Assembly: GCA_958295805.1 (NCBI GenBank)
Contig: OY282373.1
Location: 1,025,001-1,089,000, forward strand
Source of the DNA: an uncultured Nitrospirales bacterium
Lineage (GTDB): Bacteria; Nitrospirota; Nitrospiria; Nitrospirales; UBA8639
Length of the DNA stretch: 64,000 nt
Reading direction: 5' to 3'
Part shown: piece after piece, positions 7,111-26,192 of the stretch
Layout of the letters: each line of letters begins with the position of its first letter
Position numbering within the stretch: the stretch's first letter is position 1
Translations under genes and position numbers: made by a program
The notes under the pieces: model-generated
Databases searched by the model: none
Seen by the model: only the letters and a program-made list of their open reading frames with translations
Told to the model about the DNA's origin: nothing

Positions 7111-7316
7111 GTTGACTGGTCATATGACAAAAGAAGACTTTTGCAAAAGTGAATGATTGTGCCCCGCCACTCACCGGTCAGATGCGTGGAGCACCACTTC
7201 TGGATTCCCGCTCCCCGATAACAAATGTCGGGGACAGGTTTCGCGGGAAGGACAAAAGGGAAACGGGAATGACGGTTGTGCAAAGGTCTCTTGACTGGTG
7301 AGATGACAAAAGGAGG
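7111..7316 (+). repeat. Direct repeats flanking a palindromic intergenic element
   Basis: Two near-identical segments, TTGACTGGTCATATGACAAA (about 7112) and TTGACTGGTGAGATGACAAA (about 7291), lie 180 bp apart. Between them sits a palindromic element running from CTGGATTCCCGC (7199) to CGGGAATGACGG (about 7273), with an inner CCCCGA/TCGGGG hairpin. The element belongs to the family also seen at 44802, 49287 and 60255. It occupies the whole gap between the first cytochrome and the first CydA-like gene. Confidence 0.65.
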
Positions 7317-21461: not shown

Positions 21462-21902
21462 CTAGAAGGTTTTATATTCGAGCCATTTGCCGTTCAGGGT
21501 GATCTTACAACGATCTTCGCCCTGACTGCCTTTGACCTTTTCCACGTCCAGCGAGAAATCAATTGCGCTCATGATGCCGTCCCCGAACATTTCATTGGCC
21601 ATCTCCCGCAACGCGTCGCCGTACACGCCGATCACCTCAAGCAGACGGTACTTAAAGGGATCGGCGGTATTCGGAAAGTCTGCCCGCACCGGGAACCGAC
21701 TCAAACCGGCGGCGGTGTCCTGATCGAGACCCAAGAGGGTGCCGACGGTCTCGGCCTCCTCAGGGGTCAATCGATGATTTCCCTGTAACGCGGCGGCCAC
21801 AAAGACAGGGCTCTTGTGTACGGCTTCGGCTACCTGAGCAATGGTCACGTTTTTTTCCAGACGTTTGGCGTTGATCGTGTTTCGAGCACACGTGGCGTCC
21901 AT
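21462..21902 (-). CDS. cynS: Cyanate hydratase (cyanase)
   Basis: 146 residues, the usual cyanase length. It has the N-terminal helical DNA-binding-like domain (KRLEKNVTIAQVAEAVHKSPVFVAAALQGN) and the C-terminal catalytic domain. That domain carries YRLLEVIGVYGDALREMANEMFGDGIMSAIDF, containing the conserved Arg, Glu and Ser of the active site, and a closing GKWLEYKTF. It converts cyanate and bicarbonate to carbamate and CO2, and the carbamate then gives ammonia. Encoded 60 bp after the ABC transporter ATPase on the same strand, so the operon imports and detoxifies or uses cyanate as nitrogen source. In nitrifying communities the ammonia released can also feed ammonia oxidisers. Confidence 0.96.
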   Translation of the reverse strand: MDATCARNTINAKRLEKNVTIAQVAEAVHKSPVFVAAALQGNHRLTPEEAETVGTLLGLDQDTAAGLSRFPVRADFPNTADPFKYRLLEVIGVYGDALREMANEMFGDGIMSAIDFSLDVEKVKGSQGEDRCKITLNGKWLEYKTF

Positions 21903-21962: not shown

Positions 21963-22817
21963 CTAGGCACTGAAGTTGATCGAGACGGGGTCGGAAGGGC
22001 TCGATTCCGTCTGATTTCCGGCTCCATGCTCGCGTTCACGCGAGGCGTGGCGCACGAGAAAATGAATGACGTGGTTTCTGATTTTGTAATACCGGTGGTC
22101 GTCGATGATCGTTTCTCGTGACCGGGGTCTGGGGATGGTCACGTCCACGATTTCGGCAATCCGGGCCGATGGGCCGTTGGTCATGAGCATGATGCGGTCC
22201 GAGAGTAAGATGGCCTCATCCACGTCGTGCGTGACCATGAAGACCGTGTTGCGGGTGGCGTTCCACATTTGCACTAATTCCTCTTGAATCACGCCACGGG
22301 TCAAGGCATCGATTTGCGCAAACGGTTCATCCAACAACAGCACCTTCGGCTCAATGGAGAACGCGCGTGCCAAGCCGACCCGCTGCTTCATGCCCCCGGA
22401 CAGCGCCGTCGGTTTTTTGGTTTCGGCTCCGGTCAGGCCGACCAACGCGATATATTTGTTGACGTGCGCGTTGATCTCTTGCGAACTCCAGGTGGGATAA
22501 GCCGAACGGACGGCCAGGGCGACGTTTTCAAACACGGTCATCCACGGCATCAAGGCGAAATTTTGAAACACCACCATCCGATCCAATCCCGGCCCCGTGA
22601 CTTCTTGCCGATTCAGAATGACGCCGCCTTCGGTCGGCGTGTCCAGTCCGGCGATGATGTTGAGCAACGTGCTTTTCCCACACCCGGAATGGCCGATCAC
22701 GGTGACGAATTCGCCTTTATCAATCTTGACCGTGACGTCTTGAAAAATGCAGACGGTGCCGTTCCCGGAATGATTCGGGAAATATTTGCTCAGATGATCG
22801 ATAGAGAGAAATGACAT
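21963..22817 (-). CDS. ABC transporter ATP-binding protein, NrtD/CynD type
   Basis: 284 residues. The Walker A motif is GHSGCGKST, followed by a Q-loop (VVFQNFALMPWM), signature LSGGMKQRVGLARA, Walker B VLLLDEPFAQID and a switch His (TVFMVTHDVDEA). This matches the NitT/TauT ATPase family for nitrate, nitrite, cyanate, bicarbonate or sulfonates. The C-terminal 35 residues are non-conserved and Ser/Pro-rich. It is separated from the permease gene by 3 bp. The adjacent cyanase makes cyanate the likeliest substrate, though nitrite or nitrate cannot be excluded. Confidence 0.92.
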   Translation of the reverse strand: MSFLSIDHLSKYFPNHSGNGTVCIFQDVTVKIDKGEFVTVIGHSGCGKSTLLNIIAGLDTPTEGGVILNRQEVTGPGLDRMVVFQNFALMPWMTVFENVALAVRSAYPTWSSQEINAHVNKYIALVGLTGAETKKPTALSGGMKQRVGLARAFSIEPKVLLLDEPFAQIDALTRGVIQEELVQMWNATRNTVFMVTHDVDEAILLSDRIMLMTNGPSARIAEIVDVTIPRPRSRETIIDDHRYYKIRNHVIHFLVRHASREREHGAGNQTESSPSDPVSINFSA

Positions 22818-22820
22818 GCG

Positions 22821-23708
22821 TTACTCGTGATACGTGACCAGACCGGCCAATTTATTAAATCCCGAGTCCAGGAGTACCCCGACGGTGCCCACCACCAGAA
22901 TGGCAAAGATCACGCCGGCAATATCAAGATTGTTCCATTCAATCCAACTCAGATAGCCCACGCCCAATTCCCCGAGCAGCATCTCCGCCGGGACCACGGC
23001 GACCAATGCGCTCCCGAACGAAATGCGGAGGCCGTTCACAATGGTCGGCGCGGCTCCGGGAAGAATCACCTTGTAGAGCCGCTTCACCCACGATAATTGA
23101 AGAATGGCGGCCACCTGCAAATATTCCCGTCGGAGAGAATTCACGCCGAAGGCCGTGGTGGCCAGGGTGGGCCAGATCGCGGCCATGAACACCACCATGA
23201 TTGCCGTCCATTTCGGATCTTTGACCGTGTACAGGAGCAAAGGCATCCAGGCTAAGGGCGAGATGGGCTTCAGAATCTGAATAAACGGGTTCAGCGCGCG
23301 AAACAACATCTGGTTCAGTCCCAATAGAATTCCCACCAGAATCGCCACTCCGGAGGCAGCCAGGAACCCGACCGAAAATCGTGAAACCGTATACCCCACC
23401 AGAAAGGCGATCCCATGATCGTTGGTCCCTTTAATCACAAAGGCTTCGGTCAATTCGATCCAGGCTTTCTCCGCCACCGTCATGGGCCCCGGGACCCCTT
23501 TCACCTTTTCTTTCTCCGGATTCCACGTGTACCCGCCGTCGTCGGTCTGTACGATATCGCCGTTGAACTCCAGGACCAGCAACTCCTCCTCCGTTTTTCC
23601 GGTGGGGTCGAACGTGGGACTGATGGTGGCGACATGCCAGACGAGCAGAAAAATCCCAAGGAAAAATATGGAAATAAAGAACGGATGTTGTGTGCGTGTG
23701 ATCTTCAT
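22821..23708 (-). CDS. ABC transporter permease, NrtB/CynB type
   Basis: 295 residues with an N-terminal helix, a periplasmic stretch and five or six further helices. The cytoplasmic EAA-like loop contacting the ATPase is visible (LRREYLQVAAILQLSWVK..LPGAAPTIVNGLR). The region between the first and second helices (about 30-85) is longer than in typical NrtB and carries a GDIVQTDDGG stretch, a feature of some nitrate/cyanate permeases. It lies 20 bp after the binding-protein gene. Confidence 0.92.
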   Translation of the reverse strand: MKITRTQHPFFISIFFLGIFLLVWHVATISPTFDPTGKTEEELLVLEFNGDIVQTDDGGYTWNPEKEKVKGVPGPMTVAEKAWIELTEAFVIKGTNDHGIAFLVGYTVSRFSVGFLAASGVAILVGILLGLNQMLFRALNPFIQILKPISPLAWMPLLLYTVKDPKWTAIMVVFMAAIWPTLATTAFGVNSLRREYLQVAAILQLSWVKRLYKVILPGAAPTIVNGLRISFGSALVAVVPAEMLLGELGVGYLSWIEWNNLDIAGVIFAILVVGTVGVLLDSGFNKLAGLVTYHE

Positions 23709-23728: not shown

Positions 23729-25054
23729 TCAGACCATGCTGTGAATGGGAAAACTCTTCACGTAAGCGTCAGGCTTCAGGGGATCGAACGTCTTTCCCAT
23801 AATAACGTGGGACGTCATGGTCCTGGCGTGCGTAGGATAGCCCAGACTCTTGGCCACCTTGTCACAATCCGCCGCACGATAGACCTGCTCGGCGACTTTT
23901 TGATAATTGACGTCCCCTTTCAGATGGCCCCATCGTTTCATCTGAGTCAATATCCAAATGGCCATGGAATGCCAGGGATACGGATCGAAATCAATGCGAC
24001 TCGGAACCTTCTGAATGCCGCCTAATCCATCGGCAAACGTTCCGGTGAGCACTTGTTCCAGAACGATGCGAGGCTGGTTCAAGTAGTTCGCCGGCGCAAT
24101 CGCTTTGGCGATCTGTTTCCGGTTGGCCGGGTTTGACGCGTAATGCGTGGCATCGACGATTGCCTTGAATAACGCGAGAAACGTATTCGGATGCGTCGTC
24201 GCGAATTCCTGTGAGATCGCAAACGCGCAGCACGGATGTTTGTCCCAGATGTCTTTCGAGAGCTTGTAGATAAAGCCGACGTTCTCATAGACCGCGCGTT
24301 GGTTAAAGGGATCCGGAGCCAGATAGCCGTCAACGTTTCCGGCCTTCAGATTGGCGACCATTTCCGGCGGCGGCACCACGCGGATCTGCACGTCTTTGTC
24401 CGGGTGAACGCCGCCGTCCGCCAGAAAGTAGCGTAGCAGGTAATTGTGCATGGAATAGTCAAAAGGCACGCAAAAGCGAAATCCCTTCATATCCGCGGCC
24501 GTTTTCACGGCTTGATGTTTGTTGTGCAGGGTAATGGCCTGTCCGTTGATATTTTCCACGGCGGGCATATAGAACGGGACTTGAGGCGAGCCCGCCCCCA
24601 AGGTAATGGCCAAGGGCATGGGCGAGAGCATGTGCGCAGCATCGATGTCTTTATTGATTGCCCAATCTCTCACCATGGCCCAACCGGCCGCCCGTTTTAC
24701 TTTGGCGTTCAAGCCATGTTTGCTGTAGAAGCCCATGGGTTCGGCCATGATAATCGGCGTAGCGCAGGTAATGGGAATGAACCCGATGCTGAGGTCCCGT
24801 TTTTCCGGTTTCCCGACGGGGTCCGCGGCCAGTGCCTGGATCCGTGAGAGAGGAAGAAACTCACTGATCAGGCCAACCAAGGCCGCGCTGCCCAGACCGG
24901 CAAGGAGTTGACGTCGACTCGGTCCCGTTTCCCGTAGCACGGCGTTCACAACGGCCTTCTCCAGCGTCTTGGAAAGACGGTCGTCAGCACTGAGCGTTCG
25001 ACTCTCCGTTGCCGTCTCAAATGAGGGATCGTAAGTGTTCGTGGATTGTGCCAT
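23729..25054 (-). CDS. Substrate-binding protein, NrtA/CmpA/CynA type, Tat-exported
   Basis: 441 residues. A twin-arginine signal (SRRQLLAGLGSAALVG) begins about 47 residues in. The mature domain is a two-lobed NitT/TauT binding fold (GFIPITCATPIIMAEPMGFY; RVVPPPEMVANLKAGNVDGY; ACCAFAISQEF-like region). It should deliver a small anion to the adjacent permease. GGAGG lies 5 bases before ATG 25054. It is the first gene of a four-gene operon ending in cyanase and is controlled by the sigma-54 promoter and leader described below. Substrate is inferred from cynS, not from binding residues. Confidence 0.92.
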   Translation of the reverse strand: MAQSTNTYDPSFETATESRTLSADDRLSKTLEKAVVNAVLRETGPSRRQLLAGLGSAALVGLISEFLPLSRIQALAADPVGKPEKRDLSIGFIPITCATPIIMAEPMGFYSKHGLNAKVKRAAGWAMVRDWAINKDIDAAHMLSPMPLAITLGAGSPQVPFYMPAVENINGQAITLHNKHQAVKTAADMKGFRFCVPFDYSMHNYLLRYFLADGGVHPDKDVQIRVVPPPEMVANLKAGNVDGYLAPDPFNQRAVYENVGFIYKLSKDIWDKHPCCAFAISQEFATTHPNTFLALFKAIVDATHYASNPANRKQIAKAIAPANYLNQPRIVLEQVLTGTFADGLGGIQKVPSRIDFDPYPWHSMAIWILTQMKRWGHLKGDVNYQKVAEQVYRAADCDKVAKSLGYPTHARTMTSHVIMGKTFDPLKPDAYVKSFPIHSMV

Positions 25055-25113
25055 GAGAGCCTCCTTTGCCGCTCTATGAAGTCAATAATGAAACTGATCG
25101 CTGGGCTGAGACC

Positions 25114-25193
25114 AAAAAAAACGCCAAGCCAAGAGTGTCCCATCACTCTCGTGCCTGGCGTCATCGCCAGAAACATTCTGACATCTCCGTCAG
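25114..25193 (-). promoter_or_regulatory. Leader attenuator: two tandem hairpins competing with an intrinsic terminator
   Basis: Reading the minus strand, hairpin P1 is CTGAC-GGAGAT-GTCAG (25193-25178) and, after a 7-base linker, P2 is CTGGC-GATGAC-GCCAG (25170-25155). Both have hexanucleotide loops. The 3' arm of P2 is also the base of a 17-bp terminator stem (25161-25121, one bulge, loop ATGGGA) followed by eight T (25121-25114). P2 and the terminator cannot form together. This is the layout of ANTAR-protein antitermination leaders such as nasF of Klebsiella. As I recall, those loops conserve A1 and G4; here both loops have G1 and G4, so the match is partial. The regulator is not in the window. 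Confidence 0.7.
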
Positions 25194-25232
25194 ATTACAA
25201 ACATGCTCCGTGCAACCTGTTGTAATAATAAA

Positions 25233-25247
25233 GCAAGTTCAATGCCA
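25233..25247 (-). promoter_or_regulatory. Sigma-54 promoter of the cyn operon
   Basis: The minus strand reads TGGCATTGAACTTGC, with GG and GC exactly 10 bases apart as in the -24/-12 consensus TGGCACG-N4-TTGC. Transcription should start near 25221, giving a leader of about 168 nt before the binding-protein gene. It implies control by an NtrC-like enhancer-binding protein, in keeping with nitrogen scavenging. Confidence 0.72.
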
Positions 25248-25301
25248 CGTTCCCATGATGCCTCGTTGTTGAATATTATTGAAGTTTGTCAAAACCCACG
25301 G

Positions 25302-25336
25302 ACGACAGCTTTGTCGGAAGCCGACAATGTTGTCGT
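25302..25336. promoter_or_regulatory. Large palindrome at enhancer distance upstream of the sigma-54 promoter
   Basis: Two arms centred on 25319: 14 of 16 positions are Watson-Crick complementary, one is G-T and one is mismatched, with a 3-base centre. The core is TTGTCGG-AAG-CCGACAA and the outer part ACGACA/TGTCGT. It lies about 100 bp upstream of the predicted start site, where an enhancer-binding protein would sit. No T-run flanks it, so it is unlikely to be a terminator of tRNA-Leu. Confidence 0.55.
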
Positions 25337-25642: not shown

Positions 25643-25924
25643 TTACAGGGCCGTGCGCTCCGTGACGGAATGGGCCAGCAGTTCCTGGTGGAGCGTGGAG
25701 GCAGCATCGAGTCGATGCCGGTTGATGTTCAGGGCATCGGTATCGTAGCCGGTCGGCCTATATGCTTGTAGGACACTGAGGTGGCCTGAGATATGGAGTT
25801 CCCAACACTGTTGGCGCCAGAGGCCATGGGTGTTCAGGATGTCTCGCGTGTCGCCGGCGATGTCGTGATCCTTGCAATAAACGCAGTTGCAGCAACGTCT
25901 GCATGTCACGCCGTCCATCAGCAA
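25643..25924 (-). pseudogene. Duplicated tail fragment of the degenerate helicase-like gene
   Basis: The frame encodes IAGDTRDILNTHGLWRQQCWE, which nearly repeats IAGDTRDLRGTHGLWRQQCWE at the C-terminus of the gene at 26628-28118. The DNA is also similar over about 75 bp (25805-25880 against 26655-26730). The fragment continues with NINRHRLDAASTLHQELLA, probably sequence lost from the other copy. It has no credible start and overlaps the toxin gene in another frame, so I take it as a remnant of a partial duplication. Confidence 0.55.
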
Positions 25925-26192
25925 TCACGAGTACGTAGACGTTATTGTCCATCACTTGATAGATGACGCGGTAGGGCTTGAAGAATATCTCGCGGTACTC
26001 CCGAATCCCAACGTCCAGCAATTCTTTTGGATCATTTCCGCGGTGGGGATGCTCGGATAGGCTACTGAACGCCTTTTCGATCTGTTCCAGCACGTGATCC
26101 GCCATGCCCGGTGCATCGTGCTGATTAATGGAATCGCAGATTTCCCTCAAGTCCCGTGTCGCGTTATCGGTCAACTGCACCAAGAAGGGCAT
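25758..26192 (-). CDS. RelE/ParE-type toxin with run-on C-terminus
   Basis: 144 residues. The first 95 or so match the RelE/ParE fold: a helical start (LTDNATRDLREICDSINQH), SLSEHPHRGNDPKEL, the YREIFFKPYRVIYQV strand pair and VYVLVIADGRRDMQTLL at the end. RelE-type toxins normally stop there. Here the frame continues for about 40 basic, Pro/His-rich residues read out of frame from the duplicated helicase tail. The original end of the gene therefore seems to have been replaced. Its start overlaps the antitoxin stop by one base (TGATG), as is usual for these pairs. Activity of the extended protein is uncertain. Confidence 0.75.
   Translation of the reverse strand: MPFLVQLTDNATRDLREICDSINQHDAPGMADHVLEQIEKAFSSLSEHPHRGNDPKELLDVGIREYREIFFKPYRVIYQVMDNNVYVLVIADGRRDMQTLLQLRLLQGSRHRRRHARHPEHPWPLAPTVLGTPYLRPPQCPTSI

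Follow-up and report, generated by a model that had tools for sequence, protein, structure and literature searches.

A putative ANTAR-type attenuation leader behind a sigma-54-type promoter of the cynABDS operon in a Nitrospirales bacterium

The cyanate operon cynABDS of an uncultured Nitrospirales bacterium probably carries a cis-acting attenuation leader of the ANTAR-target type, which would be read by a GAF-GAF-ANTAR protein and would act on transcripts started at a sigma-54-dependent promoter. The operon lies in a stretch of 64,000 nucleotides, referred to here as the window, which corresponds to positions 1025001-1089000 of the only contig (C1) of a 2.90-Mb genome; the nearest relatives of this genome are Nitrospirales MAGs and it is a relative of marine-type Nitrospira. 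Positions without the prefix C1 are those of the window. Read along the minus strand, two dyads are followed by the -24/-12 element, two hairpins (P1 and P2), a terminator, a run of eight T and the operon itself (25054 to 21462):

25323-25334, unstranded: candidate upstream activator dyad 1, GACAACATTGTC (GACA-N4-TGTC)
25304-25315, unstranded: candidate upstream activator dyad 2, GACAAAGCTGTC (GACA-N4-TGTC)
25233-25247, minus strand: sigma-54-type -24/-12 promoter, TGGCATTGAACTTGC; expected transcription start near 25222
25177-25194, minus strand: P1 hairpin, loop GGAGAT (A1/G4 in nine of ten relatives)
25154-25171, minus strand: P2 hairpin, loop GATGAC (AATGAC in ten of ten relatives); 3' arm common to the terminator
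25114-25161, minus strand: intrinsic terminator with T8 tail, 17 bp, -28.2 kcal/mol (RNAfold); kept in 11 of 11 genus members
23729-25054, minus strand: cynA, substrate-binding protein (Pfam, NMT1_2), start at 25054; homologues in 37 of 147 relatives
22821-23708, minus strand: cynB, ABC permease
21963-22817, minus strand: cynD, ABC ATPase
21462-21902, minus strand: cynS, cyanase

The preliminary description of this locus reported two hairpins with six-base loops downstream of a sigma-54-type promoter, the second sharing its 3' arm with a 17-bp terminator followed by eight T, and all of these elements were recovered on the minus strand. P1 is formed by CTGAC-GGAGAT-GTCAG at 25193-25178 and reaches 6 bp with TCTGAC/GTCAGA (25194-25177), P2 is formed by CTGGC-GATGAC-GCCAG at 25170-25155, and the linker between them measures 5-8 nt. 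Both loops have a G at position 4 (G4). The terminator (25161-25122, with T8 at 25121-25114), folded by RNAfold with 17 pairs, begins within the 3' arm of P2, and the two structures are mutually exclusive. Directly before the cynA start, a hairpin of 5 bp (AGAGC/GCTCT, 25055-25075, minus strand) is predicted, with the ribosome-binding sequence AAAGGAGG in its loop.

A scan for P1, P2 and an overlapping terminator gave a single match in the window, at the cyn leader, against 0.17 per dinucleotide-shuffled window, and a reversed control of 857,498 bases contained none. With the window left out of its training, a covariance model gave the cyn site 29.0 bits (E 4.9e-5), and the runner-up in the 64-kb window reached 13.2 bits. 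The Rfam search that had been proposed as a check was negative: neither gathering nor permissive thresholds produced a meaningful match at the cyn leader, and no family reached its gathering score there.

The strict -24/-12 pattern has likewise one match in the window, at the cyn promoter, versus 0.23 expected. The GG and GC elements are present at -24 and -12 with the correct spacing, the TGGCAT..TTGC of the promoter is kept in 11 of 11 genus leaders, and both rpoN and an AAA+ activator gene are encoded in the window genome. The tandem GACA-N4-TGTC dyads, 19 bp apart, are situated about 70-120 bp 5' of the -24 element. Of the 11 genus leaders, ten have one or both dyads intact, and seven have both. 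They are candidate sites at which an activator would bind. An AT-rich box between the dyads and the promoter (AACTTCAATAATATTCAA, 25267-25284, minus strand) is largely conserved in the genus and possibly represents a DNA-bending (IHF-like) site.

Alignment of the leaders of related genomes had been set as a test of the switch, and the pairing of P1, P2 and the terminator proved to be conserved in 11 of 11 genus members; the -24/-12 element is kept together with these structures in every one of these cyn-bearing genomes. The stem cells of 34 modules are paired in 95.9% of cases, a fraction that is biased upward because the scan required at least four pairs. Covariation, which is less affected, amounts to 71 stem cells changed on both sides vs 25.3 in shuffles, and sliding the stem partner abolishes this signal. 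Across the order the stem changes are compensatory. In other families a similar module, often two in series, stands ahead of cynA, either behind a sigma-70-like promoter and glnA or before an activator gene that precedes cynA. A transcription start downstream of the terminator was rejected on comparative grounds.

Several cyn leaders of family f3, among them L019, L028 and L031, have P1-P2 linkers of 20-25 nt. As a linker longer by 20 nt abolishes antitermination in the EutV system, the geometry may differ in Nitrospirales. Many Nitrospirales linkers, at about 20 nt, are above the EutV optimum; in the cyn leaders of the window genus the linkers are short.

The window genome encodes exactly one ANTAR protein, a GAF-GAF-ANTAR protein of 469 aa (C1:2411874-2412029), and thereby supplies the ANTAR-domain protein that the preliminary description suggested should be sought elsewhere in the genome. 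Alignment to EutV (6wsh) shows that seven of the 11 RNA-contact residues listed in PMC8934654 are identical (R142, K143, K149, E160, M172, N173 and R175), K147R and Y164F are conservative, and R168 and R177 differ. ANTAR proteins were found in 110 and the RNA motif in 104 of the 147 related genomes, the motif being present in 101 of the 110 genomes with an ANTAR protein versus 3 of the 37 without one (Fisher p ~1e-21, a significance inflated by shared ancestry). All 37 cyn-bearing genomes possess an ANTAR protein. The proposed combination of sigma-54 initiation with an ANTAR-type two-hairpin antiterminator is therefore supported by conservation, compensatory changes and co-occurrence, and by the presence of rpoN and of one ANTAR protein.

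The ANTAR gene of families f2 and f3 belongs to the cluster aroB-ANTAR-nadE-amtB-glnK-glnD-glnA-cynABDS, of which aroB-ANTAR-nadE-glnD are still together in the window genome, while cynABDS is found elsewhere with its own leader. ANTAR-type modules lie between the genes of the nitrogen cluster in other Nitrospirales families (L082, L083, L084 and L091), which suggests an order-wide ANTAR nitrogen regulon. The gap between the ANTAR gene and nadE in the window genome (L085, about 7113-7170, minus strand) retains the 3' end of a terminator alone, GAGGGCGTTTTTT, at a place occupied in other genera by a full module; no nadE module was found in the genus of the window, and in the window genome it looks degraded.

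In members of the genus, modules also precede a gene for an OmpL-like porin and a gene for a sigma-54 activator. The activator, with AAA and Fis HTH domains and no receiver, is divergent from cynA in six of 11 genomes. It agrees in type and in placement with CynF of Pseudomonas pseudoalcaligenes CECT5344, is likely to be CynF-like and would control cynABDS. The cynF gene of the window genome (C1:567900-569087) is unlinked to the cyn operon, and its leader comprises P1, P2 with the seven-base loop AATGAAC, a terminator and then a second module. Such a seven-base P2 loop is common to the cynF leaders (L183, from the window genome, and L173-L182), conserved as AATGAAC, with AATGAGC in one of them, and A1 and G4 are kept. 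The porin gene of the window genome (C1:1905510-1906727) is preceded by P1 with the loop ACTGGT, P2 with GAAGAA, and a terminator. A model search of this genome returned chance matches only, inside genes or without terminators; as it missed the genome's own cyn, porin and cynF sites, it cannot define the full regulon. The cynF and porin leaders suggest a feed-forward gate, and as the same switch stands before the cyn operon, the likely activator gene and the porin gene, the entire cyanate pathway is probably under the gate of a single RNA-binding protein.

The preliminary description also pointed out that the loops of the window leader show G1/G4 rather than A1/G4, which is correct for both P1 and P2. 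Its suggestion that this might reflect another regulator or else a variant code found no support: relatives combine A1/G4 with an ANTAR domain that is nearly identical, and modules with G1 in a single loop are a recurring variant. Within the genus, the cyn loops are A1/G4 except in the window genome and in G013, which has G1 in P1. When loop letters were left unconstrained, 147 module-like sites yielded G4 and, at position 1, a purine, with A ahead of G, a preference absent from the reversed control; position 4 of P2 is G in 120 of these sites. Only the window module, among the 147 collected, has G1/G4 in both loops. G1 in a single loop is common: the second module of several f3 cyn leaders has it in P1, the window P2 loop GATGAC recurs at nadE of G141, and nearly all porin leaders of the genus keep GAYGAA or GAAGAA in P2, the latter in the copy of the window genome. 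The same protein would therefore have to read both A1 and G1 loops. No coding change matching G1 was found in the ANTAR domain, which is near-identical within the genus.

Position 6 of the window loops is U in P1 and C in P2, therefore RNAfold closes both loops to tetraloops, which happens in none of the ten relatives. In the crystal structure of EutV with RNA, the only base contacted specifically is G4, and no contact is made with A1 (Walshe et al., PMC8934654); the same authors suggested that A1 keeps the loop from closing, and Met172 has been proposed to exclude tetraloops (PMC8934654). According to Ramesh et al., A1-to-U changes lower induction and antitermination in the EutV system (PMC3369931), and the preference of NasR in SELEX is A1/G4 (PMC7496416). 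Because of G1 in both loops and the predicted tetraloop closure, switching in the window leader may be weaker than in the relatives.

Based on these observations, we propose that a CynF-like activator and RpoN would start transcription near 25222 and that RNA polymerase would by default stop at the terminator, which takes the 3' arm of P2 as its own 5' arm. The active GAF-GAF-ANTAR protein would bind P1 and then P2, keeping P2 folded and blocking the terminator, so that cynABDS would be read. The signal is probably nitrogen status. The same ANTAR protein would also gate cynF through two leader modules, and cynABDS and the porin gene through one each, in a coherent feed-forward AND circuit; as cynF is itself behind ANTAR terminators, cyn expression should need the ANTAR protein twice. 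The reading in its widest form, in which one GAF-GAF-ANTAR protein gates the mRNAs of cynF (with two serial terminators), cynABDS and the porin, recognizes hexaloops with G1 as well as A1, even in a leader whose loops can both pair shut, and thereby creates an AND gate of initiation times elongation within an order-wide nitrogen regulon, is put forward tentatively, at slightly under even chances.

The loops of the window leader might instead be signs of decay, in which case the ANTAR protein would no longer read it and the terminator would attenuate a sigma-54 operon in a fixed manner. We regard this as unlikely, though by no means negligible: its doubled G1/G4 is unique among the collected modules, P2 is an invariant AATGAC in the ten other genus members, tetraloops are predicted here only, and the nadE module of the genus is degraded too. 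However, all stems are preserved, as are the C:G closing pairs, G4, the terminator and T8, and P1 is longer than in the relatives; G1 in P2 is kept in nearly all porin leaders of the genus, GATGAC is found at nadE of G141, and EutV does not contact A1 in the crystal structure. The departure from A1 could also point to some other RNA-binding regulator, or the hairpins could be controlled by a translated leader peptide. Such control is very improbable, as the relatives have A1/G4, the motif and the ANTAR protein co-occur across the 147 genomes, ANTAR and cyn genes are clustered in other families, and a leader peptide does not appear to be needed to account for the leader.

A tRNA-Leu gene (25526-25443, minus strand) lies about 200 bp 5' on the same strand, and the terminator might belong to its transcript and merely shield cynA from read-through. 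This is hardly credible, since in six of 11 relatives a divergent cynF, and no tRNA, is found upstream and the leader is still kept; moreover, P1, G4 and the covariation call for more than a terminator. We retain an ANTAR-read attenuation leader as the most plausible explanation; its anatomy, conservation, covariation, co-occurrence with the ANTAR protein and regulon members are seen in the sequences, and binding, antitermination, the activation of cyn by CynF and the signal are inferred from them.

The arrangement resembles the leader of Klebsiella oxytoca nasF, where a nitrogen-assimilation operon under the control of NasR follows a pair of hexaloop hairpins and an intrinsic terminator that overlaps the second of them. 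Transcription of nasF starts by sigma-54/Ntr initiation. In contrast to nasF and its NIT-ANTAR regulator NasR, the target here is a cyanate operon, the regulator is an unlinked GAF-GAF-ANTAR protein, the gene of the activator has the same switch, and the window genome has G1 loops. The dual-hairpin and terminator plan is also that of the Enterococcus faecalis eut leaders read by EutV and of the ANTAR-target RNAs described in a survey (PMC3369931), although EutV is a phosphorylated response regulator, unlike the protein considered here. That survey (Ramesh et al. 2012) linked such RNAs to PII, to ammonium, urea, nitrate and nitrite transport, and to glutamine and glutamate synthesis, and no cyanate genes were found in passages of its main text (PMC3369931).

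In P. pseudoalcaligenes CECT5344, cynABDS depends on CynF, and cynA has a sigma-54 promoter upstream (PMC6627978); the promoter type recalls the one described here, and the Fis-type sigma-54 activator is divergent from cynA as in six of the 11 genus members. No terminator or ANTAR layer has been reported for that strain (PMC6627978), whereas cynF of the window genome is unlinked and has its own ANTAR leader. Dual-hairpin ANTAR leaders on nitrogen genes (PMC3369931) and sigma-54/CynF control of cyn (PMC6627978) are therefore each already known. A literature search of incomplete coverage, limited to main texts, yielded no paper that describes cyanase under ANTAR control or ANTAR regulation in Nitrospira.

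If the proposal is true, one RNA-binding protein joins cyanate uptake, cyanase and their activator in a single regulon controlled at the level of elongation, to which ammonium transport and NAD synthesis are added in relatives. The leaders would also constitute a natural test of loop position 1, with A1 vs G1 and an open hexaloop vs a closed tetraloop facing near-identical ANTAR domains. Nitrifiers of the Nitrospira type are important in the nitrogen cycle, and as the cultured Nitrospira moscoviensis (L221) has such terminator modules ahead of cynA, the system is open to experiment.

In a wider set of cynA loci, -24/-12 elements without the module precede cynA in many phyla, and the modules are nearly confined to Nitrospirota, plus one Rhodospirillales MAG (L279). 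Within this set, both layers, the sigma-54 promoter and the module, are clearly present on cynA in one group alone, the genus of the window. In L279 (1-630) a gene for an ANTAR-domain regulator ends just 5' of a P1/P2/terminator module and cynA, possibly an independent ANTAR-controlled cyn operon. A weak scan match in the same set, L283, looks like chance. Close to the cyn operon of the window, a ParE-type toxin gene (25758-26192, minus strand) is located 5' of the tRNA-Leu gene.
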